Shown in pieces: positions 12,092 to 26,146 of a DNA stretch of 64,000 nucleotides. A program made the translations under genes and the position numbers. Origin of the DNA: Arthrobacter globiformis. GTDB taxonomy: Bacteria > Actinomycetota > Actinomycetes > Actinomycetales > Micrococcaceae. Position 1 is the first letter of the stretch. Every line of letters begins with the position of its first letter. The notes beneath the pieces were generated by a model. That model had not been told where the DNA came from. It was given only the letters and a program-made list of their open reading frames with translations, and did no database searches. The stretch is taken from contig NZ_QLNP01000098.1 in NCBI RefSeq assembly GCF_003261175.1, forward strand, positions 124,001 to 188,000. Direction: 5' to 3'.

Positions 12092-12910
12092 AATAGCCCG
12101 ATCCTGATCGCCTGTGCCCATGGGACCTCCAACGCGCAAGGAGCCGCCGAGGTCAACGCCCTCCGTGACGCCATCGCCGCGCTGCGTCCGGGGCTCGACG
12201 TCCGCGAAGCCTACGTGGACGTCCAGCAGCCCGATCTGGTGGACGTAGTGGCCGGGCTCCCCGGGGACCCCGGCTCCGCAGCAACGGCCGGCTCCGCAGC
12301 AACGGCCGACGGCGGTGCTGCCGCCGGCGGGCCCGGCGCCGCCGGCACGTCCGCCGTCGTCGTACCCTTGCTGCTCAGCGTGGGCTACCACGTCAAGGTG
12401 GACATCGCGAAGGCCGTCAAGAGCCGGCCGGGGACGGCGGCCGCGGCGCCGCTGGGACCCGATCCGCGCCTCGCCGCCCTGCTCGACCAGCGGCTGCGGG
12501 AGGCAGGTGTTACGGACAACGACGCGATCGTGCTCGCCGCCGCCGGCTCGTCCAACCCGAACGCCGCGGTCAGCGTGGAGGAACTGGCTGACCAGCTGAG
12601 GGCCCTGCGCTCCAACCGAATCGTCCCCGCGTACGGCGCCTCGGCCAAGCCGTCGGTGCCCGAAGCCGTCGCCATGCTCCGCGAGGAAGCCGCAGGCGGC
12701 GCCGGGGCGGGGGAGTCGGCCGGGGGCGTGAGCGTTGGCGGGCGCGTGGTAGTGGCCTCGTACCTCCTGGCGCCGGGCTTCTTCCACGACCAGCTCGCTA
12801 AGGCCGGGGCAGACCTGGTGACCGAGCCGCTGCTGCCCTCGCCGGTGCTCGCGGAGATCGCGCTGGAACGGTACGACGCCGCGCTCGCGGCCCACGCCGT
12901 CACGTCCTGA
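12089..12910 (+). CDS. Sirohydrochlorin chelatase (CbiX/SirB-type)
   Basis: Metal insertion into sirohydrochlorin; next to sulfite reductase it most likely provides iron for siroheme (ferrochelatase), although CbiX homologues can insert cobalt. The 273-residue protein has ACAHGTSNAQG near the N-terminus (His11, metal binding), VVPLLLSVGYHVKVDI carrying the second metal His, and a second half with VLAAAGSSNPNA and SYLLAPGFFHDQL, so both CbiX-like halves are present. Between the halves of the first domain there is an Ala/Gly-rich insertion (about residues 57-88) containing a perfect 18-bp tandem duplication. Located 144 nt upstream of sir on the same strand. Confidence 0.85.
   Translation: MNSPILIACAHGTSNAQGAAEVNALRDAIAALRPGLDVREAYVDVQQPDLVDVVAGLPGDPGSAATAGSAATADGGAAAGGPGAAGTSAVVVPLLLSVGYHVKVDIAKAVKSRPGTAAAAPLGPDPRLAALLDQRLREAGVTDNDAIVLAAAGSSNPNAAVSVEELADQLRALRSNRIVPAYGASAKPSVPEAVAMLREEAAGGAGAGESAGGVSVGGRVVVASYLLAPGFFHDQLAKAGADLVTEPLLPSPVLAEIALERYDAALAAHAVTS
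12272..12307 (+). repeat. 18-bp perfect tandem duplication inside the chelatase gene
   Basis: Two adjacent identical 18-mers (12272-12289 and 12290-12307) encode GSAATA twice in a low-complexity loop of the chelatase; in frame, so the protein tolerates copy-number change. Confidence 0.9.
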
Positions 12911-12974
12911 AACGCGCCGGGAGACAAGCCCCAGGAAGCACAGGCGGCGGCGCCGTTCAAGGCCTCCCGGCGAG

Positions 12975-13057
12975 TCATGACGAAATGTTTCCTTAGGTGA
13001 CTTAGCATTTCCGGGCCTTTGTGACGTGTTTCGGGGCGGCCCTACAGTCGATGCATG
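12975..13057 (+). promoter_or_regulatory. Sulfur-assimilation promoter module, copy 1 (sir-cysHDN)
   Basis: TGACG 12978-12982, GTGA 12997-13000, ATTT 13007-13010, -35 TTGTGA 13019-13024, 18-nt spacer ending CCC, -10 TACAGT 13043-13048, then CGATGC and ATG 13055. Same spacing as the modules before the sulfonate transporter and cysG. The -10 to ATG distance predicts a leaderless mRNA. Confidence 0.75.
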
Positions 13058-14794
13058 ACTGATACAGCTGTAGCCGGAGCGGCCACGGACAAGCCCGCGC
13101 GCCCGGCCCGTGCCTCCCGACCCGCCGCCAAGCCTCACGGCCAGTGGAAGGTGGACGGAACCACCCCGCTGAACGCCAACGAAACCTGGAAGCAGGAAGA
13201 CGACGGCCTCAACGTCCGCGAGCGTATCGAGTCCATCTATGCCAAGGAAGGCTTCGACGCCATCCCCGGCCAGGACCTGCACGGCCGCTTCCGCTGGTGG
13301 GGCCTGTACACCCAGCGCAAGCCCGGGATCGACGGCGGCAAGACCGCAACGCTGGAGCCGCACGAGCTTGAGGACAAGTACTTCATGCTCCGCGTCCGCA
13401 TCGACGGCGGCGCGCTGACCACCGAGCAGCTGCGCGTCATCGGCCAGATTTCCGTGGACTTCGCACGCGATTCCGCGGACCTCACCGACCGCCAGAACAT
13501 CCAGCTGCACTGGATCCGCGTCGAAGACATCCCGGAGATCTGGCGCCGCCTCGAGAGCAACGGCCTGTCCACCACCGAAGCCTGCGGCGACGTTCCGCGC
13601 GTCATCCTCGGCTCGCCCGTGGCCGGCATCGCCAAGGACGAGATCATCGACCCCACCCCGCTCATCGAAGAGCTGGGCGAGCGGTTCATCGGCAACCCGC
13701 TGCTGTCCAACCTGCCGCGCAAGTACAAGACCGCCATCACGGGCCACCCCAGCCAGGACGTGGTGCACGAGATCAACGACTTCGCCCTCGTTGGCGTCAG
13801 GCACCCCGAGCTCGGCATCGGCTACGACCTCTGGGCCGGCGGCGCGCTCTCCACCAACCCGATGCTCGGCAAGCGCCTGGGCGCGTTCGTGAAGCCGGAG
13901 CAGGCCGCTGACGTGTGGCTCGGCGTCACCAGCATCTTCCGTGACTACGGCTACCGCCGCATGCGCACCAAGGCCCGCCTGAAGTTCCTCATGGCCGACT
14001 GGGGTCCGGAGAAGTTCCGCCAGATCCTCGAGGACGAATACCTCGGCTACAAGCTGGCTGATGGCCCTGCCGCTCCCAAGCCCTCCACTCCGGGCGACCA
14101 CGTGGGCGTGCACGAGCAGAAGGACGGCAAGTTCTTCATCGGTGCCACCCCCATTGCAGGCCGCCTCTCCGGCGCGCAGCTGGTCAAGCTCGCCGACACG
14201 CTCGAGGCGCGCGGCTCCTACCGCCTGCGCACCACCCCGCACCAGAAGCTCGTGGTGCTGGACGTTCCCAAGGACGAGGTGGAGCCGCTTGTGGCTGAAC
14301 TCGACGCGCTGGGCCTGTCCGCCCGCCCGTCCGTGTTCCGCCGCGGCACCATCGCCTGCACCGGCATCGAATACTGCAAGCTGGCCATCGTGGAAACCAA
14401 GGTCACCGCGGCCACTGCCGTCGCCGAGCTGGAACGCCGGCTCGCCGACCTCGCGGACAGCGGCCAGCTCCCGCAGGCACTGTCGCTGCACATCAACGGC
14501 TGCCCCAACTCCTGCGCCCGCATCCAGACCGCGGACATCGGGCTCAAGGGCATGATGCTTCCCACGCCCGACGGCGACCCCACCCCGGGTTTCCAGGTCC
14601 ACCTGGGCGGCGGGCTGGCTTCCGTTGAACGCGACGAGGCCGGCCTGGGACGCACCGTCCGCGGCCTGAAGGTTTACGTCGCCGACCTGCCGGACTACGT
14701 CGAGCGGGTTGTCCGCAGGTTCGTCGCGGACCGCGCCGAGGGCCAGACGTTCGCCGAGTGGGCCCACGCAGCAGACGAGGAGGCACTCCAGTGA
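13055..14794 (+). CDS. sir: Ferredoxin-dependent assimilatory sulfite reductase (nitrite/sulfite reductase family)
   Basis: Six-electron reduction of sulfite to sulfide using siroheme and a 4Fe-4S cluster. The 579-residue protein has two ferredoxin-like half domains; cluster and siroheme ligands are visible as CTGIEYCK and, about 40 residues later, NGCPNSCAR, i.e. four Cys in the classic pattern. Substrate-binding arginines fall in DRQNIQLHW and ARDSAD regions. Nitrite reductase is the alternative for the family, but co-transcription with cysH, cysD and cysN makes sulfite the substrate. Start is ATG 13055, set 6 nt from a -10 box. Its stop overlaps the cysH start (GTGA). Electrons likely come through ferredoxin and the FprA protein encoded at 24.7 kb. 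Confidence 0.93.
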   Translation: MTDTAVAGAATDKPARPARASRPAAKPHGQWKVDGTTPLNANETWKQEDDGLNVRERIESIYAKEGFDAIPGQDLHGRFRWWGLYTQRKPGIDGGKTATLEPHELEDKYFMLRVRIDGGALTTEQLRVIGQISVDFARDSADLTDRQNIQLHWIRVEDIPEIWRRLESNGLSTTEACGDVPRVILGSPVAGIAKDEIIDPTPLIEELGERFIGNPLLSNLPRKYKTAITGHPSQDVVHEINDFALVGVRHPELGIGYDLWAGGALSTNPMLGKRLGAFVKPEQAADVWLGVTSIFRDYGYRRMRTKARLKFLMADWGPEKFRQILEDEYLGYKLADGPAAPKPSTPGDHVGVHEQKDGKFFIGATPIAGRLSGAQLVKLADTLEARGSYRLRTTPHQKLVVLDVPKDEVEPLVAELDALGLSARPSVFRRGTIACTGIEYCKLAIVETKVTAATAVAELERRLADLADSGQLPQALSLHINGCPNSCARIQTADIGLKGMMLPTPDGDPTPGFQVHLGGGLASVERDEAGLGRTVRGLKVYVADLPDYVERVVRRFVADRAEGQTFAEWAHAADEEALQ

Positions 14795-15555
14795 GCAAGC
14801 ACGCACTGGGAATCGACCCGGTGGTTGAGCCTGTCGAAACCTCGACCAGCGGAACCAAGCGTTCCGTCGAAGAGCTGAAGGCCCTCGCCGAGGCCGGCGC
14901 AGCCGAGCTCGGCTGGGACGCCCCGGCCCGCGACGTCATCGCATGGGTCGAGCGCAACTTCGACATGCCCGCCGTCGCCGTCGCTTGCTCCATGGCCGAC
15001 GCCGTCCTGCCGGCGCTCGTTGCCGACCAGCTTCCCGGCGTCGACGTCCTGTTCCTGGAGACCGGCTACCACTTTCCGGAAACCTACGCCACGCGCGACG
15101 AGGTGGCCGCAAACCTCCGCGTCAACGTGGTCGACGTGCTTCCCGAGAACACCGTGGAGCAGCAGGACCGGCTCCTGGGCAAGGACCTGTTCGCCCGCGA
15201 CGCCGCCCAGTGCTGCGCCCTCCGCAAGGTGGCCCCGCTGCGCCGCACGCTCGCTGGCTACGAACTGTGGTTCACCGGCGTCCGCCGCGACGAGGCCCCA
15301 ACCCGCACCAACACGCCGCTGGTGACCTGGGACGAGGCCAACGGCCTGGTCAAGGTCAACCCGGTGGCGGCCTGGACGTTCGACCAGCTGGTCCAGTACT
15401 CCGATGACAACCTCCTGCCCGTCAACCCGCTCCTGTCCCAGGGCTACCCATCGATCGGCTGCCAGCCCTGCACCCGCAAGGTGGCGCCCGGTGATGATCC
15501 CCGCGCCGGCCGCTGGGCAGGAACTAACAAGACAGAATGCGGACTACACGTATGA
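14791..15555 (+). CDS. cysH: Adenylyl-sulfate (APS/PAPS) reductase
   Basis: Thioredoxin- or glutaredoxin-dependent reduction of activated sulfate to sulfite, cytoplasmic. The 254-residue protein has AVACSMADAVL (P-loop-like), the catalytic C-terminal TECGLH, and both CC (AAQCCALRK) and CxxC (GCQPCTRK) cysteine pairs that hold a 4Fe-4S cluster, the mark of APS rather than PAPS reductases. No APS kinase (cysC) is present here, which agrees. GTG at 14791 overlaps the sir stop by 4 nt. Residues 11-20 (VVEPVETSTS) are the translation of a REP-like repeat inserted in the non-conserved N-terminus. Confidence 0.92.
   Translation: MSKHALGIDPVVEPVETSTSGTKRSVEELKALAEAGAAELGWDAPARDVIAWVERNFDMPAVAVACSMADAVLPALVADQLPGVDVLFLETGYHFPETYATRDEVAANLRVNVVDVLPENTVEQQDRLLGKDLFARDAAQCCALRKVAPLRRTLAGYELWFTGVRRDEAPTRTNTPLVTWDEANGLVKVNPVAAWTFDQLVQYSDDNLLPVNPLLSQGYPSIGCQPCTRKVAPGDDPRAGRWAGTNKTECGLHV
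14820..14850 (+). repeat. REP-like element, copy A, inside cysH
   Basis: The core GGTTGAGC-CTGTCGAAACC followed by CTCGACCAGC is the repeat seen in many Micrococcaceae intergenic regions; here it is translated in frame near the CysH N-terminus. Imperfect dyad: TGGTTGAG against CTCGACCA. Confidence 0.75.
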
Positions 15556-16499
15556 GCACTTTCATTACTGAGGAGCCCACCCTGGTGACCGACGCCGCTG
15601 AATCCAAGCGCCTCTCCAGCCTGGACACCCTCGAATCCGAAGCGATCCACATCATCCGTGAGGTTGTGGCCGAGTTCGAGAAGCCGGCGCTGCTGTTCTC
15701 CGGCGGCAAGGACTCCGTGGTCATGCTGCACCTGGCCACCAAGGCGTTCTGGCCCGGCAAGGTCCCCTTCCCCGTGCTGCACGTGGACACCGGCCACAAC
15801 TTCCCCGAGGTTATCGACTTCCGCGACCGGACGGTGGAGCGGCTGGGACTGAAGCTCGTCGTCGGCTCCGTGCAGGAGTTCATTGACCGCGGCGAGCTGG
15901 CCGAGCGTGCCGACGGCACCCGCAACCCGCTGCAGACCGTCCCGCTGCTGGACGCCATCCAGTCCAACAAGTTCGACGCTGTGTTCGGCGGAGGCCGCCG
16001 CGACGAGGACAAGGCCCGCGCCAAGGAGCGCATCCTGAGCCTGCGCGATGAGTTCGGCCAGTGGGACCCGCGCAACCAGCGCCCCGAGCTGTGGAACCTG
16101 TACAACGGCCGGCACACCGTGGGCCAGCACGTCCGTGCGTTCCCCATCAGCAACTGGACCGAGCTGGACGTGTGGCGCTACATCGAGCGCGAAAACATTG
16201 AACTTCCGGGCCTGTACTACGCCCACGACCGCGAGGTCTTCGCCCGCGACGGCATGTGGCGCGCGGTGGGCGAGGTGTCCCAGCCGCTGCCGCACGAGGA
16301 AGTCATCACCAAGACCGTCCGCTACCGGACCGTCGGTGACATGTCCTGCACCGGCGCCGTCGAGTCGGCCGCCGCCACAGTGCGCGACGTCGTGATCGAA
16401 GTTGCCGCCTCCACCATCACCGAACGTGGCGCCACCCGTGCGGATGACCGCATCTCCGAGGCCGCCATGGAAGACCGCAAGAAGGACGGCTACTTCTAA
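15552..16499 (+). CDS. cysD: Sulfate adenylyltransferase subunit 2
   Basis: Catalytic ATP sulfurylase subunit forming APS from ATP and sulfate, working with the GTPase subunit CysN. The 315-residue protein carries the PP-loop LFSGGKDSVVMLHLA, then HVDTGHNFPE, FGGGRRDEDKARAKER and FPISNWTELDVWRYI, all typical of CysD. ATG at 15552 overlaps the cysH stop (ATGA), preferred over an in-frame ATG 15 nt earlier that lies inside cysH. Its stop overlaps the cysN start by one base (TAATG), so the four genes sir-cysH-cysD-cysN are translationally coupled. Confidence 0.95.
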   Translation: MSTFITEEPTLVTDAAESKRLSSLDTLESEAIHIIREVVAEFEKPALLFSGGKDSVVMLHLATKAFWPGKVPFPVLHVDTGHNFPEVIDFRDRTVERLGLKLVVGSVQEFIDRGELAERADGTRNPLQTVPLLDAIQSNKFDAVFGGGRRDEDKARAKERILSLRDEFGQWDPRNQRPELWNLYNGRHTVGQHVRAFPISNWTELDVWRYIERENIELPGLYYAHDREVFARDGMWRAVGEVSQPLPHEEVITKTVRYRTVGDMSCTGAVESAAATVRDVVIEVAASTITERGATRADDRISEAAMEDRKKDGYF

Positions 16500-17920
16500 T
16501 GACTACCGACATTGACACCGCCCGCGCCGCGGCGCTCCTGGACGAGGCCCCCCTCGCCTCTGCCTCGCTGTTCCGCTTCGCCACCGCCGGATCGGTCGAC
16601 GACGGGAAGTCCACTCTGGTGGGCCGCCTCCTGCACGACTCCAAGGCGATCCTCGCCGACCAGCTCGAGGCTGTTGCCCGGACCTCCTCGGACCGCGGCT
16701 TCGGCGGCGACAAGGGCGGCATCGACCTCGCCCTGCTGACCGACGGACTGCGTGCTGAGCGCGAACAGGGCATCACCATCGACGTGGCCTACCGCTACTT
16801 CGCCACCGACCGCCGCAGCTTCATCCTGGCGGACTGCCCGGGGCACGTCCAGTACACCAAAAACACGGTGACCGGCGCGTCCACAGCGGACGCCGTCGTC
16901 GTACTTATTGACGCCCGCAAGGGCGTGCTCGAACAGACCCGCCGGCACCTGTCCGTGCTGCAGCTGCTGCGCGTGGCGCACGTGATTGTGGCCGTGAACA
17001 AGATCGACCTGGTGGACTTCAGCGAGTCCGTTTTCCGCGAGATCGAAGCCGACGTGCAGCAGGTGGGCCGTGAACTGGGCCTCGGTTCCGATGGTATTGC
17101 CGACCTGCTGGTGGTTCCGGTATCCGCGCTCGACGGCGACAACGTGGTGGAGCGCTCGGAGCGCACCCCCTGGTACACCGGCCCGGCGCTGCTCGAGGTG
17201 CTCGAGACGCTGCCCGCCGCCGACGAACTCGAAAGCCACCTGGAGAGCTTCCGCTTCCCGGTACAGCTGGTCATCCGGCCGCAGGGCGCCTTGGCACCCG
17301 ACGCCGTGGCCGCCGGCCTGGACGTGGAGGCCTACCGTGACTACCGCGCGTACGCCGGACAGATTACCGAAGGCTCGGTCAAGGTTGGCGACAAGGTCAG
17401 CGTGCTGACCCCCGGCCAGGACCCGCGCACCACCACGGTGATTGGCATTGACTTCGCCGGTGTCTCGCTGGAGGAAGCCTCCGCTCCGCAGTCCGTGGCG
17501 ATCCGCCTGGCGGAGGAGTTCGACGTCGCCCGCGGTGACACCATCGCCGCCGCCGGCACTGTCCGCGAAAGCACCGCCGACCTGTACGCCCAGCTGTGCT
17601 GGCTGTCCCCGAAGCCGCTCCGCGAGGGCGCCAAGGTCCTGGTCAAGCACGGCACCCGCACCGTGCAGGCCCTGGTGCGCAGCGTCAACGGCAAGCTGGA
17701 CCTGGCCACCTTCAACCTCGAGGGTGCCTCCAGCCTGGAGCTCAACGACATCGGCCACGCTCAGCTCCGGCTCGCGGCTCCGCTGCCGCTCGAGAACTAC
17801 CTGCACCACCGCCGCACGGGCGCGTTCCTGGTGATCGACCCGCTCGACGGCAACACCCTCGCCGCCGGCCTGGTCAAGGACCACCCGGGCGACCACGAGG
17901 ACGAGCGCTACTCGATCTGA
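16499..17920 (+). CDS. cysN: Sulfate adenylyltransferase subunit 1 (GTPase)
   Basis: Elongation-factor-like GTPase that drives APS synthesis by CysD. The 473-residue protein has P-loop GSVDDGKS at residues 31-38, switch I EQGITIDVAYRYF, DCPGHVQYTKN (DxxG) and NKIDLVD (NKxD), followed by two beta-barrel domains. It ends with the CysN barrel; there is no fused APS kinase (CysC) domain as found in the NodQ/CysNC type, consistent with an APS-reductase pathway. Last gene of the operon; a strong hairpin follows within 30 nt. Confidence 0.95.
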   Translation: MTTDIDTARAAALLDEAPLASASLFRFATAGSVDDGKSTLVGRLLHDSKAILADQLEAVARTSSDRGFGGDKGGIDLALLTDGLRAEREQGITIDVAYRYFATDRRSFILADCPGHVQYTKNTVTGASTADAVVVLIDARKGVLEQTRRHLSVLQLLRVAHVIVAVNKIDLVDFSESVFREIEADVQQVGRELGLGSDGIADLLVVPVSALDGDNVVERSERTPWYTGPALLEVLETLPAADELESHLESFRFPVQLVIRPQGALAPDAVAAGLDVEAYRDYRAYAGQITEGSVKVGDKVSVLTPGQDPRTTTVIGIDFAGVSLEEASAPQSVAIRLAEEFDVARGDTIAAAGTVRESTADLYAQLCWLSPKPLREGAKVLVKHGTRTVQALVRSVNGKLDLATFNLEGASSLELNDIGHAQLRLAAPLPLENYLHHRRTGAFLVIDPLDGNTLAAGLVKDHPGDHEDERYSI

Positions 17921-17944
17921 TCGCGCCGAATTCGCCGCAAACCT

Positions 17945-17976
17945 GCGAGGCCGCCGTAGCCATACGGCGGCCTCGC
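17945..17976 (+). terminator. Terminator of the sir-cysHDN operon
   Basis: A perfect 14-bp stem (17945-17958 with 17963-17976) and 4-nt loop, between cysN and the convergent SRPBCC gene; probably bidirectional. Confidence 0.85.
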
Positions 17977-18010
17977 TGCGTTCCTGCGAGCTCGGGGTGA
18001 GCGGCCGGCG

Positions 18011-18448
18011 TTAGGCGCCGGCTTCGAGGACCGACTTGAGCTTCTGCAGGTCCTTGCGTGTTGCTCTGCAGATCATCGGCGCCATGAACAGCCCCGCCAG
18101 CTGCGAGAAACCCGACGGTTTGCCCGTGTTGCCGAGCGTCATCCGGGTCCCCCCGCTGACCTCTGCCCACGTGTAGGTCGTCTGCATGGGAAAGGGACCC
18201 TGGGCGGTGCGCATCACAAGCTTCTCGCCCGGGACGTACTCGGTGAATTCGTAGGTGTAGTTCAGGTCTCGGCCCAGGAACTTGGCAGTGAAGGCAACCT
18301 TGGATCCGACGTCGATCGGTCCGGCCGTCAGCCGGCGTGAAGAGTGGATGTTGTCGTACCACTGCGGCGCGTTGTCGGGGTTCGAGGCGTACTCTGCCAC
18401 GACATCCCGCGGCCGCCGGATAAGGACCTCTGTCTGAACATCCACCAT
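18011..18448 (-). CDS. SRPBCC family protein (polyketide cyclase/dehydrase-like)
   Basis: A 145-residue START/Bet v1-like protein: opening VDVQTEVLIRRPRDVVAEYASNPDNAPQWY with the conserved W-Y, then EFTEYVPGEKLVMRT and a C-terminal amphipathic helix LFMAPMICRATRKDLQKLKSVLEA. Such proteins bind hydrophobic ligands in a cavity; the ligand cannot be told from sequence. It converges with the cys operon and diverges from rtcB (75 nt between starts). No sign that it belongs to sulfur metabolism. Confidence 0.85.
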   Translation of the reverse strand: MVDVQTEVLIRRPRDVVAEYASNPDNAPQWYDNIHSSRRLTAGPIDVGSKVAFTAKFLGRDLNYTYEFTEYVPGEKLVMRTAQGPFPMQTTYTWAEVSGGTRMTLGNTGKPSGFSQLAGLFMAPMICRATRKDLQKLKSVLEAGA

Positions 18449-18523
18449 GCTTGCGTCTCCTATGTGCGGGGGCGAGGTCTAGCCTAGGAACAACGTTAGT
18501 CCTCGTTCGTCCCGGGAGGGTAC

Positions 18524-19690
18524 GTGGAATCCATCACCAGCCGGCTCATCAACTGGGCGTCAATTCTGGACGACAAGACCCGCGAGCAGGCCCTGACTAC
18601 CTCCCGCCTACCGTTCATCTACCCCCACTTGGCACTGATGCCGGACGCACACCTGGGCAAAGGCGCAACGGTGGGGTCCGTCATCCCGACGCTCGGGGCG
18701 ATCATTCCGGCCGCCGTCGGGGTGGACATCGGCTGCGGCATGATCGCGGTGCGAACCCAGTACAGCCTTAAAGACCTGCCGCGGGACCGGAAGCCGCTGC
18801 GCGAGAACATCGAGCGCGCCGTTCCGCTGTCGGCGGGCCACAACAACCGCAAGGTGACGACCACTGCGGAGCCGCGCATCGCGGAGCTGCACCGGCGGGC
18901 CGAAAAGGCCGGGTTCAACCCGGCGCAGTATGTGGCGAAATGGGACCTGCAGCTCGGCTCGCTCGGCTCCGGCAACCACTTCATCGAGGTCTGCACCGAC
19001 GAGACCGACGCCGTGTGGCTGTTCCTGCACTCGGGCTCACGCGGCATCGGCAACAAGATCGCCCAGCACCACATCAAGGTGGCGCAGGGCGTGGCCCGGG
19101 ACAAGCGCATCAGCCTGGAGGACCCGGACCTCGCGTACCTGGAGGAGGGCACGAAGGAGTTCACGCGGTACATCAAGGAGCTGCGCTGGGCCCAGCACTT
19201 CGCCCTGCTGAACCGCGAGGAGATGATGGACCGCGTGATCCGGCAGTTCGGTGATTGGGTCGGCGGAACGGTCACGGAGACGGAGCGGATCAACTGCCAC
19301 CACAACTTCACCCAACAGGAAACGCATTACGGAAAGTCGGTCTGGGTGTCGCGCAAGGGCGCCATCAAGGCCGAGGCCGGCGACCCCGGCCTGATTCCGG
19401 GATCCATGGGGACGGCGTCGTACGTCGTGGAGGGACTGGGCAACACCGCCTCCCTGAACTCCTCACCCCACGGTGCCGGCCGGGAGTATTCGCGTAACGC
19501 AGCGCGCAAGACGTTTTCTCTCGCCCAGCTCAAGGAGGCCATGCACGGGATCGAGTTCCGGGCCAGCGAGGCGTTCATCGATGAGATCCCGGCCGCCTAC
19601 AAGCCCATCGACCAGGTCATGCACGACGCCAAGGACCTCGTGAGGGTACGGCACCGGCTGCGCCAGCTGGTCAATGTCAAGGGGGATTAG
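18524..19690 (+). CDS. rtcB: RNA-splicing ligase RtcB
   Basis: GTP- and Mn-dependent ligation of RNA 2',3'-cyclic phosphate or 3'-phosphate ends to 5'-OH ends. The 388-residue protein shows PDAHLGKGATVGSVIPT, VGVDIGCGM (metal Cys), GSLGSGNHFIEV, HSGSRGIGN, and SPHGAGREYSR, whose His is the one guanylylated in E. coli RtcB. GTG start preceded by GGGAGGG. No rtcA, archease or tRNA gene is adjacent; in actinobacteria the gene is often solitary and its substrate (repair of cleaved tRNA or rRNA) is inferred from the family. Confidence 0.94.
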   Translation: MESITSRLINWASILDDKTREQALTTSRLPFIYPHLALMPDAHLGKGATVGSVIPTLGAIIPAAVGVDIGCGMIAVRTQYSLKDLPRDRKPLRENIERAVPLSAGHNNRKVTTTAEPRIAELHRRAEKAGFNPAQYVAKWDLQLGSLGSGNHFIEVCTDETDAVWLFLHSGSRGIGNKIAQHHIKVAQGVARDKRISLEDPDLAYLEEGTKEFTRYIKELRWAQHFALLNREEMMDRVIRQFGDWVGGTVTETERINCHHNFTQQETHYGKSVWVSRKGAIKAEAGDPGLIPGSMGTASYVVEGLGNTASLNSSPHGAGREYSRNAARKTFSLAQLKEAMHGIEFRASEAFIDEIPAAYKPIDQVMHDAKDLVRVRHRLRQLVNVKGD

Positions 19691-19736
19691 CCCCTGAAAT
19701 GTTAAGGCCTGCGCACAGGCGGATTTATGTGGCTGA

Positions 19737-19819
19737 ATGTGACGCTGCATGAACGTGCGTGACCCCCGGTTTCCGCTTCGTTGAACCGTGTTTACGCCAG
19801 TCCCTATGGTGAATCCATG
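19737..19819 (+). promoter_or_regulatory. Sulfur-assimilation promoter module, copy 2 (sulfonate-type ABC transporter)
   Basis: TGACG 19740-19744, GTGA 19759-19762, TTT at 19770-19772, -35 TTGAAC 19781-19786, 18-nt spacer ending CCC, -10 TATGGT 19805-19810, GAATCC, ATG 19817. Spacing is identical to copies 1 and 3. Confidence 0.75.
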
Positions 19820-20971
19820 AGTACTTCCAGGCCGGGCATGACCCGCATTGTGGCCGGCGAGAGCCAGACGCCCAAGCGCCGCCGCGCCCTGGAAGTCGCG
19901 CTGGCCGTCGGCCTGGTCCTGCTGATCAGTGTTGGAGCGGTTGTTGCGTCGGCAGTGGCCCGGGATTCCAATGCCTCCGCGGCTCCGGACGCGGCGGGTA
20001 CCCCGGCGGCCGAGCTAAAGCTGGGCTACTTCGGAAACATCACGCATGCCCCGGCACTGGTCGGAGTGAAGCAGGGCCTCATTGCCAAGAACCTGGGCGA
20101 CACCAAGCTCAGCACCCAGGTATTTAACGCCGGCCCGGCCGCTATTGAGGCGCTGAACGCGGGCGCGATCGATGCCACGTACATCGGTCCGAACCCGGCC
20201 ATCAATTCTTTCGTTAAGAGCAAGGGCGAATCCGTCAGCGTCATCGCCGGGGCAGCCTCCGGCGGCGCGCAGCTGGTGGTCAAGCCGGAGATCAAGTCCG
20301 CGGCCGACCTCAAGGGCAAGACCCTGGCCTCCCCGCAGCTGGGTGGCACCCAGGACGTGGCGCTGCGCGCCTGGCTGGGCAAGCAGGGTTACAAGACCAC
20401 TCCCGACGGCGGCGGGGACGTTGCCATCAATCCCACCGAGAACGCCCAGACCCTGAAGCTGTTCCAGGACGGCAAGCTCGACGGCGCGTGGGTGCCCGAG
20501 CCGTGGGCCTCCCGTCTGGTGCTCCAGGCCGGAGCGAAGGTCCTGGTGGACGAGAAGGACCTGTGGGACGGCTCGCTGACCGGCAAGCCCGGCGAGTTCC
20601 CCACCACGATCCTGATCGTGAACAAGAAGTTCGCCGCGGAGCACCCGCAGACCGTGGAGGCCCTGCTCAAGGGCCATGTCCAAGCCGTGAAGTGGCTCAA
20701 CGACACCCCCTCCGCCGAGAAGGCCGCCGTCGTCAATGCCGCCCTCAAACAGGATGCAGGCAAGGCCCTGGCGCCTAACGTCATTGACCGCTCGCTGAAG
20801 AACATCGTGTTCACGGTGGACCCGCTGGCGGGAACGTACAAGAAGCTGCTGCAGGACGGTGTGGACGCCGGCACCACCAAGCAGGCCGACCTCAACGGCC
20901 TCTTCGATCTCCGGGCGCTGAATTCAGTGGCCACGGAAAAAATCACAGCTGCAGGGCTGGGCCAGGATTAG
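19817..20971 (+). CDS. Aliphatic sulfonate-type ABC transporter, substrate-binding protein
   Basis: Periplasmic-type binding protein of the SsuA/TauA/NMT1 family, 384 residues from the ATG at 19817 (a TTG 36 nt upstream overlaps the promoter -35 and is rejected). A hydrophobic N-terminal segment at about residues 28-50 (VALAVGLVLLISVGAVV) acts as signal anchor; no lipobox Cys is seen. Mature part: LKLGYFGNITHAPALVGVKQG, GAIDATYIGPNPAINSF, LGGTQDVALRAWL, DGAWVPEPWASRLV, the pattern of sulfonate and related receptors. Nitrate, taurine or hydroxymethylpyrimidine receptors share the fold, but a promoter shared with sir and cysG argues for a sulfur compound. Confidence 0.88.
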   Translation: MSTSRPGMTRIVAGESQTPKRRRALEVALAVGLVLLISVGAVVASAVARDSNASAAPDAAGTPAAELKLGYFGNITHAPALVGVKQGLIAKNLGDTKLSTQVFNAGPAAIEALNAGAIDATYIGPNPAINSFVKSKGESVSVIAGAASGGAQLVVKPEIKSAADLKGKTLASPQLGGTQDVALRAWLGKQGYKTTPDGGGDVAINPTENAQTLKLFQDGKLDGAWVPEPWASRLVLQAGAKVLVDEKDLWDGSLTGKPGEFPTTILIVNKKFAAEHPQTVEALLKGHVQAVKWLNDTPSAEKAAVVNAALKQDAGKALAPNVIDRSLKNIVFTVDPLAGTYKKLLQDGVDAGTTKQADLNGLFDLRALNSVATEKITAAGLGQD

Positions 20972-21027
20972 TCCGGCCCCGCATCTGCGCCGCTGCATTT
21001 AACGCACCACGAACAAAGGACGGAACC

Positions 21028-21753
21028 ATGCCAGTCGTACTGGAGAACCTGGGCAAGCGCTTCGGCGAAGGCGCCCCGGTGCTGGACGACGTCAACGCCA
21101 CCATCGGCAGGGGCGAGTTCGTCGCACTCCTGGGGGCGTCCGGCTGTGGCAAGTCCACCTTGCTGAACATTATGGCGGGACTGGAGCTCCCGACGTCGGG
21201 CGCCCTGGAGGTGCCCAGCGACGGCGCCGCCTTCATGTTCCAGGACTCTGCCCTGTTCCCGTGGCTCACCGCCCGCGAGAACGTGGAGCTGGCGCTGAAG
21301 CTGCGCGGGGTGGGCAAGGCCGAACGGCGCGTCAAGGCCGCCGAGCTGCTGGACCTGGTCCACCTTGCCGAGGCCGCTGACCGGCGTCCGCACGAGCTGT
21401 CCGGCGGCATGCGTCAGCGCGTGGCTCTGGCCCGCTCGCTCGCGCAGGACCGCCAGTTGCTCCTCATGGATGAGCCGTTCGCGGCGCTGGACGCCATCAC
21501 CCGCGACCTGCTGCACGACGAACTCGAGCGCATCTGGAAGGAAACCGGACGCACCATCGTCTTTGTGACCCACAACGTCCGCGAGGCGGTCCGCCTGGGC
21601 CAGCGCGTCCTGCTGCTGTCCTCCCGGCCCGGCCGCGTGGTGCAGGAATGGGAAGTCACCGAAGAACACCGTACCGACGCCGGTCTTGCCGGACAGCTGA
21701 CCGGGGTCATCACCGCCCGGCTGCGAGAGGAGATCCGCCGCCATGCCAAGTAA
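21028..21753 (+). CDS. Aliphatic sulfonate-type ABC transporter, ATP-binding protein
   Basis: SsuB/TauB-like ATPase of 241 residues: Walker A GASGCGKST at 36-44, Q-loop FMFQDSALFPWLTARENV, signature LSGGMRQR, Walker B LLLMDEPFAALD, switch His in FVTHNVREAVRLG. It is 56 nt after the binding protein and overlaps the permease start by 11 nt, so the three genes form one unit. An AAAGGA Shine-Dalgarno precedes the ATG. Transport of sulfonates is inferred from family and promoter context; no desulfonating monooxygenase (ssuD/tauD) is encoded in the window. Confidence 0.92.
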   Translation: MPVVLENLGKRFGEGAPVLDDVNATIGRGEFVALLGASGCGKSTLLNIMAGLELPTSGALEVPSDGAAFMFQDSALFPWLTARENVELALKLRGVGKAERRVKAAELLDLVHLAEAADRRPHELSGGMRQRVALARSLAQDRQLLLMDEPFAALDAITRDLLHDELERIWKETGRTIVFVTHNVREAVRLGQRVLLLSSRPGRVVQEWEVTEEHRTDAGLAGQLTGVITARLREEIRRHAK

Positions 21754-22732
21754 CTCATCTCCCGTGGCCGAGACGCCCGAGGCGACCGAAACGCCGCTGG
21801 TTGAGCCTGCCGAAACCAAGATCTCAACCAGCGCCGCGGAAAAGGTTCACGCCGCGCTGACCCGGTCTTCCACTGGCTCGGCGGACCTGCGCGAACTCGA
21901 ATCGGGGCTGGACTCGCTGCAGTCGGACGCTGTTCGCAAGGCGCGCATCGACTGGAGCCGGATCCTGCTGCCGATCGCCGCCGTCGTGGTGCTGATCATT
22001 ATCTGGCAGTTCTACGTTTCGCTGGGCCTCAAGCGCCGCGACCAGGTGCCCGGCCCCATGGACGTGCTGGAGCAGTTCGGTGCGCTGTGGGCTGAGGGGT
22101 CGCTGCAGGAGGCCGTCTGGACGTCGCTGCAGCGCGGGCTTCTGGGGTTCCTAATCAGTGTTGCGATCGCCACACCTGTCGGGCTGCTCCTAGCCCAGGT
22201 GGCGCCGCTACGCAGGGCGTTCGGGCCGCTGATTTCCGGACTGCAGGTGCTGCCGTCGGTGGCCTGGGTGCCGGCCGCCATCATCTGGTTCGGCCTCACC
22301 GACGCCACGGTGTACTTCGTGGTGTTCATGGGTGCCATCCCGTCCATCATCAACGGACTGATCTCCGGTGTTGACCAGATCCCGCCGCAGTACCGCAGCG
22401 TGGGTACGGTCCTCGGCGCCTCGCGGCTTCAGATGGCCGTACAGGTCATCCTCCCCGCGGCACTTCCGGGTTATCTCAGTGGCCTCAAGCAGGGCTGGGC
22501 CTTCTCCTGGCGTTCGCTCATGGCCGCGGAAATCATCGCCGTGGGCGGCACCATCGGCTTCGGCCTCGGCTCCATGCTGAACCAGGGCCGCGACCTTGCC
22601 GACATGACCATCGTCATGTCCGCGATCCTCCTGATCCTGGCCGTGGGCATCCTGATCGAGCTGCTGGTGTTCGCGCCGATCGAGAAGCGACTCCTCCAGC
22701 GCCGCGGCCTCCTGGCAGGCAGCACCCGCTAA
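21743..22732 (+). CDS. Aliphatic sulfonate-type ABC transporter, permease
   Basis: SsuC-like permease, 329 residues, with about six membrane spans from residue 70 on (RILLPIAAVVVLIIIWQFYVSLGL) and the EAA loop VGTVLGASRLQMAVQVILPAALPGYLSGLK. The first 65 residues are hydrophilic and Pro/Glu/Thr-rich; residues 19-30 (LVEPAETKISTS) are the translation of a REP-like element with perfect 10-bp inverted arms. Family members normally start close to the first membrane span, so this cytoplasmic extension is unusual. ATG at 21743 overlaps the ATPase gene; a terminator follows 20 nt after the stop. Confidence 0.9.
   Translation: MPSNSSPVAETPEATETPLVEPAETKISTSAAEKVHAALTRSSTGSADLRELESGLDSLQSDAVRKARIDWSRILLPIAAVVVLIIIWQFYVSLGLKRRDQVPGPMDVLEQFGALWAEGSLQEAVWTSLQRGLLGFLISVAIATPVGLLLAQVAPLRRAFGPLISGLQVLPSVAWVPAAIIWFGLTDATVYFVVFMGAIPSIINGLISGVDQIPPQYRSVGTVLGASRLQMAVQVILPAALPGYLSGLKQGWAFSWRSLMAAEIIAVGGTIGFGLGSMLNQGRDLADMTIVMSAILLILAVGILIELLVFAPIEKRLLQRRGLLAGSTR
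21796..21832 (+). repeat. REP-like element, copy B, inside the permease gene
   Basis: GCTGGTTGAG (21796-21805) and CTCAACCAGC (21823-21832) are perfect 10-bp inverted repeats enclosing CCTGCCGAAACC; translated in frame as part of the permease N-terminal tail. Confidence 0.8.
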
Positions 22733-22751
22733 GCACCCCCGTACTGAACCC

Positions 22752-22785
22752 GAAAGCCCGACGGCGACTCCGCCGTCGGGCTTTC
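22752..22785 (+). terminator. Terminator of the sulfonate-type transporter operon
   Basis: A perfect 15-bp stem (GAAAGCCCGACGGCG 22752-22766 with its complement 22771-22785), 4-nt loop, trailing CTTTCC: a standard intrinsic terminator. Confidence 0.92.
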
Positions 22786-22885
22786 CTCTGCCCGCCGACG
22801 GACCCTTGCTCCGCGAACAATGCATGCCTAGACTCGCGATGAGGCCGGCATCCGGCCCGATTCCACAACTGTTCAGGAGGTAGCC

Positions 22886-23182
22886 GTGGCACCAAAATTT
22901 GGACTGCTGGCACTGGTCGAGGCCAAGCCCGGGAAGGAACAGGAAGTTTGGGACTTCCTCGGCGGCGGCCGCGAGATAGTGCTCACCGAGCCCGGCACGA
23001 GGACCTGGTACGCCTTCCGAGTCAGCGCGAACACCTTCGGCATTTTCGACACTTTTGACACTGAGGAGGACCGACAGGCGCACCTCCAAGGGGCCATTCC
23101 TGCAGCCCTTGGCCAATATGGTCCGTCCCTGCTCGCCAAGGATCCGGACATCCGGCCGATCGAACTCATCGCCGTAAAGTAA
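22886..23182 (+). CDS. Antibiotic biosynthesis monooxygenase (ABM)-domain protein
   Basis: A 98-residue single ABM domain: FGLLALVEAKPGKEQEVWDFL, then EPGTRTWYAFRVSANTFGIFDTFDTEEDRQAHLQGAIPAAL. Members of this dimeric ferredoxin-like family include quinol monooxygenases (YgiN) and heme-degrading enzymes; the catalytic specificity cannot be assigned from sequence, and no heme-ligand Asn/His pattern is obvious. GTG at 22886 follows a strong AGGAGGT Shine-Dalgarno with 4-5 nt spacing. It stands alone between two terminators, so it is its own transcription unit, not part of the sulfur genes on either side. Confidence 0.8.
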   Translation: MAPKFGLLALVEAKPGKEQEVWDFLGGGREIVLTEPGTRTWYAFRVSANTFGIFDTFDTEEDRQAHLQGAIPAALGQYGPSLLAKDPDIRPIELIAVK

Positions 23183-23195
23183 CGGCCCGCGTGGG

Positions 23196-23222
23196 GCGGA
23201 GGCGGCCCTACGCCGCCTCCGC
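23196..23222 (+). terminator. Terminator after the ABM-domain gene
   Basis: A perfect 11-bp stem GCGGAGGCGGC (23196-23206) with GCCGCCTCCGC (23212-23222), 5-nt loop. It ends only about 5 nt before the cysG promoter module. Confidence 0.8.
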
Positions 23223-23226
23223 ACCT

Positions 23227-23309
23227 ATGTGACGCAGCGTTACCTTGCGTGAACTGGTGTTTCTGTGCCGTTGGTGGGGCCCGTAATACAGCCCTACCGT
23301 TGATTCATG
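23227..23309 (+). promoter_or_regulatory. Sulfur-assimilation promoter module, copy 3 (cysG)
   Basis: TGACG 23230-23234, GTGA 23249-23252, TTT at 23260-23262, -35 TTGGTG 23271-23276, 18-nt spacer ending CCC, -10 TACCGT 23295-23300, TGATTC, ATG 23307. Shares a nearly identical ATGTGACGC-N-GC block and TGCGTGA with copy 2. Confidence 0.75.
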
Positions 23310-24578
23310 GCAATTCAGGACATTTACCCCACTGCGCTGCGCCTCCTCGGCCGCCCTGTGCTGGTGGTGGGCGGCGGACGCGTTGCTGCGCGCCGCGCGA
23401 AGGGCCTGCTTGACGCCGGTGCCCGCGTCACCGTGGTTGCCCCCGAGGCCACTGCCGCGCTCCGCGAACTCGCCGACGCCGGCCTTCTCACCTGGGAGCC
23501 CCGCACCTACCGGTCCGAGGATGTCGACGGCGTCTGGTTCGTCCAGACCGCCACTGGCGATCCCATGGTGGATAAGCTGGTAGCTTCCGACGCCGAGGCG
23601 CAGCGCGTCTGGTGCGTCAACGCCTCCGACCATGAAGCATCCGCCGCCTGGACGCCCGCCGTCGCCGTGGTGGACGACGTCAAGATCGCCGTCAACGCCG
23701 GGGGAGACCCCCGCCGTGCCATGGCCCTGCGCGATGCCGTCGCCACCGCCCTGGAGTCCGGCGACCTGCCGCTGCGGCGCCGCCGGGCACACCGCGGATC
23801 GGTTGCCCTTGTCGGTGGCGGCCCCGGCGACACCGGCCTCATCACCGTCCGCGGCCGCCGGCTGCTCGGCCAGGCCGACGTCGTCGTCGCCGACCGCCTC
23901 GGTCCCCGTGAACTGCTCAACGAACTTGCCCCGGACGTCCGCGTCATCGAGGTGGGCAAGACCCCCGGCCACCACCCCGTGCCGCAGGCCGAGATCAACC
24001 GGATCCTCGTCGAGGAAGCCCTTCAAGGCCACCGCGTGGTGCGTCTCAAAGGCGGCGACCCCTACGTCCTGGGCCGCGGCGGCGAGGAGGCGGAATTCTG
24101 CCGCCGGCACGGCGTCGAGGTTGAAGTGGTTTCCGGCGTGACCTCCGCGATCTCTGTCCCCGCCGCAGCGGGCATCCCGGTCACGCACCGCGGCCTGGCG
24201 AAGGGCTTCAGCGTTGTAACGGGCCACGAGGAACTGTCCGAGGTCCCGGCCCGCGCCGACCACACCGTGGTGCTGCTGATGGGCGTGGGCCAGCTGCGCG
24301 AATCCGCGTCCGCCCTCGGCAAAGCCGGCCTGCCCGGAGACACACCAGTTGGTATTGTTGAAAACGGCTACCTGCCGGACCAGCGCGTCACCATCGGCAC
24401 CCTCGGCACCATCGCCGACCAGGCCGAGGCCGCCGGCGTCGCCAATCCTGCAGTGATCGTCATCGGTGACGTTGTCCGCGTCAGCCCCTTCGCGCCGTCG
24501 CACTTCAAAACCGCCGACTACAGCACCACCAGCCCCAACAAGCCCCGCACAAGCACCACCCGCGTTCTCACCCCCTAG
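23307..24578 (+). CDS. cysG: Siroheme synthase: precorrin-2 dehydrogenase/uroporphyrinogen-III C-methyltransferase
   Basis: Two-domain enzyme making sirohydrochlorin for sulfite reductase. Residues 1-145: NAD-binding precorrin-2 dehydrogenase domain (PVLVVGGGRVAARRAKGLL, NASDHEASA). Residues about 165-410: SUMT methyltransferase with VALVGGGPGDTGLITVRG, RLKGGDPYVLGRGGEE, SGVTSAISVPAAAGIPVTHRG and VLLMGVG. The first domain is shorter than in E. coli CysG (423 against 457 residues), and the domain that performs chelation there is reduced, which fits the separate CbiX-type chelatase at 12.1 kb. ATG start lies 6 nt after a TACCGT -10 box, predicting a leaderless mRNA. Confidence 0.93.
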   Translation: MAIQDIYPTALRLLGRPVLVVGGGRVAARRAKGLLDAGARVTVVAPEATAALRELADAGLLTWEPRTYRSEDVDGVWFVQTATGDPMVDKLVASDAEAQRVWCVNASDHEASAAWTPAVAVVDDVKIAVNAGGDPRRAMALRDAVATALESGDLPLRRRRAHRGSVALVGGGPGDTGLITVRGRRLLGQADVVVADRLGPRELLNELAPDVRVIEVGKTPGHHPVPQAEINRILVEEALQGHRVVRLKGGDPYVLGRGGEEAEFCRRHGVEVEVVSGVTSAISVPAAAGIPVTHRGLAKGFSVVTGHEELSEVPARADHTVVLLMGVGQLRESASALGKAGLPGDTPVGIVENGYLPDQRVTIGTLGTIADQAEAAGVANPAVIVIGDVVRVSPFAPSHFKTADYSTTSPNKPRTSTTRVLTP

Positions 24579-24587
24579 CCCCCGAGT

Positions 24588-24653
24588 CCCAACTAGCTGG
24601 CAGTTGTTGTCGTTATGAGCCTTCAAAACGACAACAAATGCGAGTCAGTTGGG
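24588..24653. repeat. Long near-perfect palindrome between cysG and fprA
   Basis: Outer CCCAACT (24588-24594) pairs with AGTTGGG (24647-24653); inner TTGTTGTCGTT (24604-24614) pairs with AACGACAACAA (24627-24637); the intervening bases are also mostly complementary. Likely the cysG terminator or a repeated palindromic element. Confidence 0.8.
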
Positions 24654-24679
24654 TGGGACCGAAGAAAAGGAACACAGCC

Positions 24680-26146
24680 GTGTCAACCAGCACCCCCGTA
24701 GGAACCGCCGCCCGCCCGTTGCGCGTGGCCGTCATCGGATCCGGCCCGGCCGGCGTCTACGCAGCGGACATCCTCACCAAGAGCGAGGCCGTCAAGAGCG
24801 GCGAGCTGACCGTGAGCATCGACCTCTTTGACCGCTACCCGGCACCCTACGGCCTGATCCGCTACGGTGTGGCCCCGGACCACCCGCGCATCAAGGGCAT
24901 CGTCAACGCCCTGCACAAGGTACTGGACCGCGGCGACATCCGCTTCTTCGGCAACGTTGACTACGGCACGGACCTCTCCATCGAGGACCTGAAGACGCAC
25001 TACGACGCCGTCATCTTCGCCACCGGCGCCATCAAGGACGCCGACCTGAACATCCCCGGCATCGAACTCGAGGGCTCCTTCGGCGGCGCCGACTTCGTGT
25101 CCTGGTACGACGGACACCCTGACGTTTCCCGCGAATGGCCGCTGGACGCGAAGGAAATCGCCGTTATCGGCAACGGCAACGTGGCCCTCGACGTAGCCCG
25201 CGTCCTCTCCAAGCACGCCGACGACCTGCTGGTCTCCGAAATCCCGGACAACGTCTACGCCGGCCTGAAGGCATCGCCGGTCACGGACGTCCACGTCTTT
25301 GGCCGCCGTGGCCCGGCCCAGGTCAAGTTCACCCCGCTGGAGCTGCGCGAGCTGTCCCACTCCAAGGACGTGGACATCATCCTGTACCCGGAGGACTTCG
25401 AGTTCGACGAGGAATCGGACCGCCAGATCCAGAGCAACAACCAGATCAAGACCATGGTTGGAACGCTCACCAACTGGATCGCCGAGCAGCCTGAGGACCT
25501 CTCCGAGCTCAAGGCATCCCGCCGCCTGCACCTGCACTTCCTGCACAGCCCGGTGGAAATTTACGACGACGCCGAGAACCCCGGGCGCGTCAGCGGCATG
25601 AAGTTTGAACGCACCGAACTGGACGGCACGGGCAACGCCCGCGGCACCGGCGAGTTCGTCGACTACCCGGTCCAGGCCGTTTACCGCGCCATCGGCTACT
25701 TCGGTTCGGCCCTGCCGGAGATCGAGTTCGACCACAAGAAGGGCGTTGTCCCGAACGCCGGCGGCCGCGTCCTGGACGCCTCCGGCGAGCACGTCCCGGG
25801 CATCTACGCCACCGGCTGGATCAAGCGCGGACCGGTCGGCCTGATCGGCCACACCAAGGGCGATGCCCTCGAGACCGTGACCTTCCTGCTGGAAGACCGC
25901 GAAAACCTGCCCGTTGCCGAGGCACCCGCTGCCAGCGCCGTCGTCGACCTGCTTGAGAGCCGCGGCGTGGAATACACCACCTGGGAAGGCTGGCTGGCAC
26001 TGGACGCGCACGAGCTCGCCCTGGGCGCCGAGGCCACCGCTGCCGGCGGCTCACACGGTGTTGAGGTTGTGCGTGAGCGCGTCAAGGTGGTGCCGCGCGA
26101 GGACATGGTCTCCATCTCCCGCGACGGGATTCCCGCCAGCGTCTGA
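24680..26146 (+). CDS. FprA-type ferredoxin/NADP reductase (FAD), copy 1
   Basis: Adrenodoxin-reductase-like flavoprotein, 488 residues, passing electrons between NADPH and ferredoxin. FAD motif VIGSGPAGVYAADIL (about residues 18-32), YPAPYGLIRYGVAPDHP, NADP motif VIGNGNVALDVARVL, GRRGPAQVKFTPLELREL and GWIKRGPVGLIGHTKGDA are all present. GTG at 24680 (STSTPVGT) with AAAAGGA 6-7 nt upstream is preferred over an ATG 42 nt earlier that lies in the palindrome. Position behind cysG suggests it feeds ferredoxin-dependent sulfite reductase; a close paralogue lies at 46.0-47.4 kb. Confidence 0.92.
   Translation: MSTSTPVGTAARPLRVAVIGSGPAGVYAADILTKSEAVKSGELTVSIDLFDRYPAPYGLIRYGVAPDHPRIKGIVNALHKVLDRGDIRFFGNVDYGTDLSIEDLKTHYDAVIFATGAIKDADLNIPGIELEGSFGGADFVSWYDGHPDVSREWPLDAKEIAVIGNGNVALDVARVLSKHADDLLVSEIPDNVYAGLKASPVTDVHVFGRRGPAQVKFTPLELRELSHSKDVDIILYPEDFEFDEESDRQIQSNNQIKTMVGTLTNWIAEQPEDLSELKASRRLHLHFLHSPVEIYDDAENPGRVSGMKFERTELDGTGNARGTGEFVDYPVQAVYRAIGYFGSALPEIEFDHKKGVVPNAGGRVLDASGEHVPGIYATGWIKRGPVGLIGHTKGDALETVTFLLEDRENLPVAEAPAASAVVDLLESRGVEYTTWEGWLALDAHELALGAEATAAGGSHGVEVVRERVKVVPREDMVSISRDGIPASV

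Follow-up and report, generated by a model that had tools for sequence, protein, structure and literature searches.

The GlnR box of Streptomyces and Mycobacterium is given in PMC10704036 as gTnAc-n6-GaAAc with half-sites in the order a-b-a-b. In Corynebacterium glutamicum, sulfur assimilation and sulfonate use are the province of the ROK-family proteins CysR and SsuR, which recognize inverted repeats whose 3′ half is of the TGAA type (PMC2580772). Here we describe a tandem operator that precedes three sulfur-type transcription units of Arthrobacter globiformis in a 64,000-nucleotide stretch of DNA (contig NZ_QLNP01000098.1, positions 124,001 to 188,000; hereafter the window, whose own numbering is used). 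Each operator consists of four direct repeats of the GTGAC, GTTAC, GTGAA or GTTTC type with a period of 10 bp, and its end adjoins a weak −35 element. Like the GlnR box, the arrays combine tandem GTNAC and GAAAC/GTTTC half-sites (72 aligned arrays; GTTTC is GAAAC on the other strand). However, the n6 spacer and 11-bp period of the published box are replaced by n5 and 10 bp, with 155 matches at a period of 10 and none at 11. The arrays also precede sulfur-type and not nitrogen-assimilation genes, a comparison for which nitrogen promoters were not scanned systematically. The array works like a GlnR-type tandem site, yet it is not one by period and target tests. The initial annotation of the window knew of no described regulator with this site; none was found in the open-licence literature, but the half-site is close enough to the GlnR box for a candidate to be named. 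The arrays share with the CysR and SsuR sites a role in sulfur assimilation and sulfonate use in an actinobacterium, but they are 10-bp direct repeats, and the candidate protein belongs to a different family.

All three operators lie on the forward strand. Operator 1, before sir, spans 12977..13011 with the units ATGAC, GTTTC, GTGAC and ATTTC at 12977, 12987, 12997 and 13007; it is conserved in relatives. Operator 2, before ssuA, spans 19739..19773 with GTGAC, ATGAA, GTGAC and GTTTC at 19739, 19749, 19759 and 19769, and an extra, weaker unit, GTGGC, lies 5′ of the array at 19729. Operator 3, before cysG, spans 23229..23263 with GTGAC, GTTAC, GTGAA and GTTTC at 23229, 23239, 23249 and 23259. 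The elements named in the initial annotation were recovered with zero mismatches at 12978–13048, 19740–19810 and 23230–23300 and in 0 of 100 shuffles, a check that took its pattern from the annotation itself and so tests position, not significance. The three copies do share these elements. The description "TGACG, 14 nt, GTGA, 7 nt, TTT" as a string of unlike elements did not hold, as these pieces correspond to the first, third and fourth units of a repeat of four, of which unit 2 (GTTTC, ATGAA or GTTAC) had been overlooked. Conservation, profile scans of whole genomes and the period controls strongly support a site of one regulator shared by the sulfur units.

An independent check used a generic matrix of four units at a 10-bp period. 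The sir, ssuA and cysG operators scored 24.8, 26.2 and 26.6, respectively. Overlapping registers accounted for the other high values in the window (23.9 at the ssuA array; 15.6 and 15.1 at the sir array), and beyond the registers of the three arrays the next-best value was at most 13.0. Twenty first-order Markov windows reached no more than 15.8. The best values in the window at periods of 9 and 11 were 19.5 and 19.1, neither of them at these three promoters. Since the three copies lie within 11 kb, a recent promoter duplication inside the cluster could be considered beside chance similarity. Between copies, however, the units are 70–80% identical, the spacers 25–50%, and the 40 bp upstream only 23–38%, against 28% for random sequence; in addition, the unit 2 type peculiar to each promoter is retained in most relatives, and the period and genome controls agree. 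We regard both chance and duplication as having a negligible probability. The stated agreement of copies 2 and 3 at the majority of positions across 50 bp is too strong: their identity is 65% over the 40-bp array and 42% over the 38-bp core promoter.

Downstream of the array, all three modules carry TTG, an 18-nt spacer, TANNGT, 6 nt and ATG on the forward strand. The core promoter of sir spans 13019..13048 (TTG 13019–13021, TACAGT 13043–13048, ATG at 13055), that of ssuA 19781..19810 (TTG 19781–19783, TATGGT 19805–19810, ATG at 19817), and that of cysG 23271..23300 (TTG 23271–23273, TACCGT 23295–23300, ATG at 23307). A consensus sigma-70 scan of 12900–23400 found no promoter, so the −35 and −10 elements of the three modules are weak by this yardstick, which fits promoters needing help. 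Among 112 arrays of loci L001–L050, unit 1 lies 77–79 nt before the start codon, and a TANNNT element ends 6 nt 5′ of it in 111, with gaps of 4–9 allowed and ties resolved in favor of 6. This is the geometry of a leaderless sigma-70-type promoter, with the −10 about 6 nt before the start codon and no room for a ribosome site, and transcription is predicted from it to start at the A of the ATG. With a weak −35 following directly after the last unit, the bound protein would most likely recruit RNA polymerase to the leaderless promoter. A position adjoining the −35 is also compatible with repression, and a unit pair at the promoter of a small open reading frame (ORF) described below lies nearer to the start (40–41 nt). 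The arrays of the sulfur promoters end 5′ of the weak −35 at a near-constant distance, however, which is the usual place of an activator, and we consider repression by the arrays improbable.

Conservation was assessed in 80 named loci, mostly from Micrococcaceae and Microbacteriaceae, obtained in a single sir scan. With a threshold of at least 21 bits on both strands, the matrix gave 134 matches, of which 66 precede sir, 43 ssuA and 22 cysG; the three unlabelled matches look in sequence like cysG arrays and lie near locus ends. The matrix did not match random genes as often as sulfur genes, since 131 of the 134 strong arrays precede sir, ssuA or cysG. Because sir was the selection criterion for the loci and these promoters guided the choice of matrix, the telling part is that no matches occur elsewhere in the 80 loci. 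Exactly four contiguous in-register units are present in 115 of the 134 arrays. The period count cited above, made on loci L001–L080 and L152 onward, gave one match at 9 and none at 8 or 12. Plain GTGAC is a frequent form of the unit in Microbacteriaceae (Cryobacterium flavum has it four times over), which argues for one protein unit per repeat. In two Paenarthrobacter loci, a reverse array lies at the 3′ end of cysN (L033 near 14970, L036 near 14925), just 5′ of a homocysteine S-methyltransferase-like gene identified by eye.

Further sites were sought with two profiles. Profile R1 was built from 72 arrays of relatives with the A. globiformis genome left out. On the 4.88-Mb A. globiformis genome, with 150 of 1793 candidates scored, it found three strong sites, all in the window (sir 36.7, ssuA 41.2 and cysG 42.7 bits). 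In this search, the fourth site (16.4 bits, E 0.036) precedes an ATP-binding cassette (ABC) ATPase in a cluster with a permease and a luciferase-like monooxygenase, and sites five and six fall within genes judged by eye to be alcohol-dehydrogenase-like. Profile R2, which includes Microbacteriaceae arrays, gave ten matches in the same genome at E ≤ 10. Three are the window modules, two lie at a NAD_binding_9/ABC/NtaA-type cluster (C75), one at a flavin-reductase gene (C73), one before the fourth-site ABC ATPase (C46) and one before an SsuA-like gene (C46:70462, by eye); two weak matches, on C64 and, close to an etfB-like gene, on C74, were not assigned to sulfur. A reverse array-like sequence stands 5′ of an etfB-like gene in two genomes (L214 of G180, matrix 24.8 bits; L150 on A. 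globiformis C74, R2 12.4 bits).

R2 at E ≤ 1 matched in 20 of 20 genomes picked for sir, several of which had supplied the model. Among the extra places are, in Agromyces, monooxygenase genes of NtaA-type or luciferase-like kind and, in Microbacterium, a five-unit array before a LysR-type helix-turn-helix (HTH) gene beside an SsuA-like gene. Within the genus, 39 of 41 genomes matched at E ≤ 0.02, matches on small contigs of fragmented assemblies being assumed to be the main cluster. Thirteen retrieved places off the main cluster comprised ten NAD_binding_9/ABC clusters (by eye from L152), one SsuA paralogue, one SsuA-like/TauD cluster and one etfB-like gene. The additional sites mostly precede genes of sulfur-scavenging type, namely sulfonate-type ABC transporters and NtaA/DmoA-type monooxygenases; a sulfur role of the NAD_binding_9 clusters is suggested by their monooxygenases. 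LacI-type regulator genes adjoin two array-bearing scavenging clusters (L153 and L205, by eye). An exact fourfold 10-bp GTGAC repeat (L155, G006 C41, near 5806) was kept out of the regulon as possibly unrelated; it lies in reverse orientation beside a RimK-like gene and could simply be a tandem repeat. In an order-wide search at E ≤ 1e-4 with stricter filters, 5 of 119 genomes and 2 of 56 genera matched, and the trait therefore looks lineage-bound. Altogether, we hold the operator and its sulfur regulon to be real with high confidence.

As the repeats are spaced near one helix turn, OmpR-type winged-helix proteins were suspected as binders. The hunt covered PF02602 plus PF00486 in the A. globiformis genome, HTH_17 in 14 genomes and OmpR-type orthogroups in 7 genomes. 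The best candidate is L092, an orphan OmpR-type winged-helix protein on contig C2 with a GlnR-like recognition helix, whose role as regulator we rate as evenly balanced. It was reached by a search with another orphan winged-helix-turn-helix (wHTH) protein and through an array 5′ of a homologue in Cryobacterium psychrotolerans. L092 orthologues are present in 29 of 30 genomes searched. A Trans_reg_C-type winged helix (PF00486) lies at C2:68126–68350 and also in the Cryobacterium orthologue. No receiver domain was found: Pfam at E ≤ 0.01 on one orthologue (L176) gave only PF00486, the C-terminal domain. The structure model has a mean predicted local distance difference test (pLDDT) value of 61.8, with mostly 82–89 in the winged helix and low confidence in the N-terminal part. 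The DNA-binding domain best matches PDB entries 8hml, 8hig and 8hih, which we take to be GlnR, and the recognition helix, RTIDVHIRRLRSKLG in L092 and RTVDVHVRRLRAKLG in these best entries, is nearly identical. Of 25 loci that include sequence 5′ of an L092-type gene, 5 carry reverse arrays there, all of them Microbacteriaceae (three-unit scores 17.1–22.3). L092 is thereby a candidate binder of the sir, ssuA and cysG arrays. The genus-specific orphan wHTH L099, beside an allantoinase-like gene and bcp, was set aside, its other-genus matches being only 34–45% identical.

Another OmpR-type protein could bind the arrays instead, either the GlnR-like L083 or a HemD-wHTH fusion (NnaR-like) encoded near nitrite and siroheme genes. 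L083 has the same recognition helix as L092; among the 19 of 21 A. globiformis OmpR-type loci that were parsed, it occurs only in these two, with L084 and L086 near. An L083 orthologue is present, however, in the array-negative G140, and the published GlnR period is 11 bp, at which the array matrix has no match. HemD-wHTH led after the seven-genome comparison of OmpR-type orthogroups, being found in the array-bearing genomes and missing from G139 and G140. It was dropped after 50 genomes: 42 contain it, but four with sir arrays do not (L037 at 19.6, L046, L049 at 18.6, L051; the L037 and L049 arrays are weaker). The NnaR motif is moreover published as the palindrome CTCAC-N16-GTGAG (PMC6277429). 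A binder of this kind is possible but rather unlikely. In four Cryobacterium genomes (G009 C27, G008 C26, G010 C8, G017 C97), HemD-wHTH shares a contig with the sir array at a distance of about 7–12 kb, and Microbacterium kyungheense (G005 C2, about 770–798 kb) has one whole and four partial HemD-wHTH matches in two pairs, as if duplicated and split.

A protein of another fold that assembles as a head-to-tail row, such as a BldC-like MerR-type or a LysR-type regulator, is an unlikely binder as well. LysR-type regulator sites are usually palindromic, although a LysR-type HTH gene lies behind the five-unit array in Microbacterium. HTH_17 genes occur in 14 of 14 genomes, array-bearing or not, and none was singled out. 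As in our arrays, BldC operators comprise two to four direct repeats, on which the protein forms a head-to-tail chain; PMC5859096 gives these repeats as AT-rich, AATTXXXX(C), before developmental genes, and the protein as having a MerR-like fold.

The regions 5′ of the L092-type genes with reverse arrays contain a small ORF with the tail CCRM-x-x (CCRMCR or close), as does the corresponding region of A. globiformis. There it reads MNKNSTAPAAAEHWPSTPAAADMRCCRMHA if a GTG is taken as the start, and is longer if an ATG further 5′ is used. The CC-R(R)-M tail, with consecutive Cys codons near the ORF end, was found in 31 small-ORF sequences, one genome being counted twice; TGTTGYCGAATG is nearly invariant at base level across these tails. 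Canestrari et al. in 2020 reportedly described mycobacterial cysteine-rich (polycysteine) leaderless small ORFs that act as cysteine attenuators. The ORF described here resembles them in its consecutive Cys codons and its place upstream of a sulfur-related gene; unlike them, it precedes a transcription factor gene, has the CCRM-x-x tail, and encodes peptides unmatched in NCBIfam. It is a putative attenuator. The mycobacterial work is cited in PMC9094748. In many Microbacteriaceae, a −10 in leaderless position was flagged 5′ of the small ORF. In the small-ORF promoter region of 8 of 10 Micrococcaceae loci, two TTAC (GTTAC-type) motifs lie exactly 20 bp apart, 40–41 nt before GTGAA, against a background of 2 such pairs in 3.26 Mb; in the remaining two, L167 and L189, the motifs lie one base further apart, as judged by eye. 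Arrays before sir scoring at least 15 occur in 26 of 28 genomes with the small ORF and in none of 3 without, kinship being uncorrected; one genome was unparsed and two were left out (no orthologue; truncated gene).

Several observations weigh against L092 as the regulator and a translated small ORF as its cysteine sensor. The locus of the candidate gene from the same genus (L185) has no upstream array of at least 15.5 bits, genomes without sir arrays also carry the candidate protein with an identical recognition helix, and L083 provides a second copy of this helix in A. globiformis. The co-occurrence count ignores kinship, and its threshold of 15 was chosen after the data were seen. Two genomes have the small ORF without a sir array of at least 15 (G143, 14.3; G139, 10.1), and G119 has it (L167) without an R2 match at E ≤ 1e-4 under strict filters. 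The small-ORF peptides match no NCBIfam model at E ≤ 1; before the ORF, no −10 was flagged in A. globiformis and most Micrococcaceae, and the start (GTG or earlier ATG) is uncertain. Finally, CGA, a rare-type Arg codon, is kept after the Cys codons in 30 of 31 sequences, beyond protein-coding need. The small-ORF sequence TCGAATG(C), which covers the final Cys-Arg-Met codons, has a complement, GCATTCG(A), immediately 5′ of the regulator start in 7 of 9 Micrococcaceae leaders, by eye (L092 on C2 of A. globiformis, L181, L182, L185, L189, L335 and L337). Because of the invariant CGA and the complementary GCATTCG, RNA pairing may be the working part, possibly as a leader RNA switch; Rfam at gathering scores found only tRNAs in the seven candidate-gene loci searched.

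The genes behind the operators are all on the forward strand. Transcription unit 1 (13055..17920) starts with sir (13055–14794), a sulfite/nitrite-reductase-type hemoprotein whose NCBIfam nitrite/sulfite reductase matches are all below cut-off, followed by cysH, cysD and cysN, named by eye. Transcription unit 2 (19817..22732) encodes a sulfonate-type ABC transporter with ssuA (19817–20971; SsuA_fam TIGR01728, above cut-off), an ATPase (21028–21753, named by eye) and a permease (21743–22732; sulfonate, taurine and nitrate types, below cut-off). Unit 3 (23307..26146), in which co-transcription is assumed, comprises cysG (23307–24578), of siroheme synthase type with TIGR01469 and TIGR01470 above cut-off, and an FAD/NAD(P) oxidoreductase (24638–26146) matching Pyr_redox_2.

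In the proposed mechanism, one regulator would act at each module, where four tandem winged-helix units would each occupy a 10-bp repeat, all on the same helix face. The regulon would supply sulfur for cysteine through sulfite reductase and sulfate activation, sulfonate import, siroheme and scavenging monooxygenases. Cysteine shortage would raise the level of L092 by stalling ribosomes at the Cys-Cys codons in the small ORF, and L092 would limit its own synthesis through the copies of the same repeat unit at the small-ORF promoter. Taken as a whole, with the operator, L092 as regulator and a cysteine-set level, we give this explanation about an even chance. More tentatively, a cysteine-starvation relay may operate, in which the small ORF with its Cys-Cys codons determines the amount of a GlnR-type protein that lacks a receiver and reads GlnR-like half-sites at 10 bp, with GlnR proper reading 11 bp, so that nitrogen and sulfur regulons in one cell would be separated by helical spacing and not by base sequence.

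Arthrobacter and its relatives are common soil bacteria, and no account of how they switch among sulfate, sulfonates and other sulfur sources was found in the open-licence literature. With the site, such a regulon can be defined exactly and scanned for in two families, and one testable protein can be named. If the spacing idea is true, near-identical recognition helices of winged-helix regulators would be kept apart by a single base pair of period.

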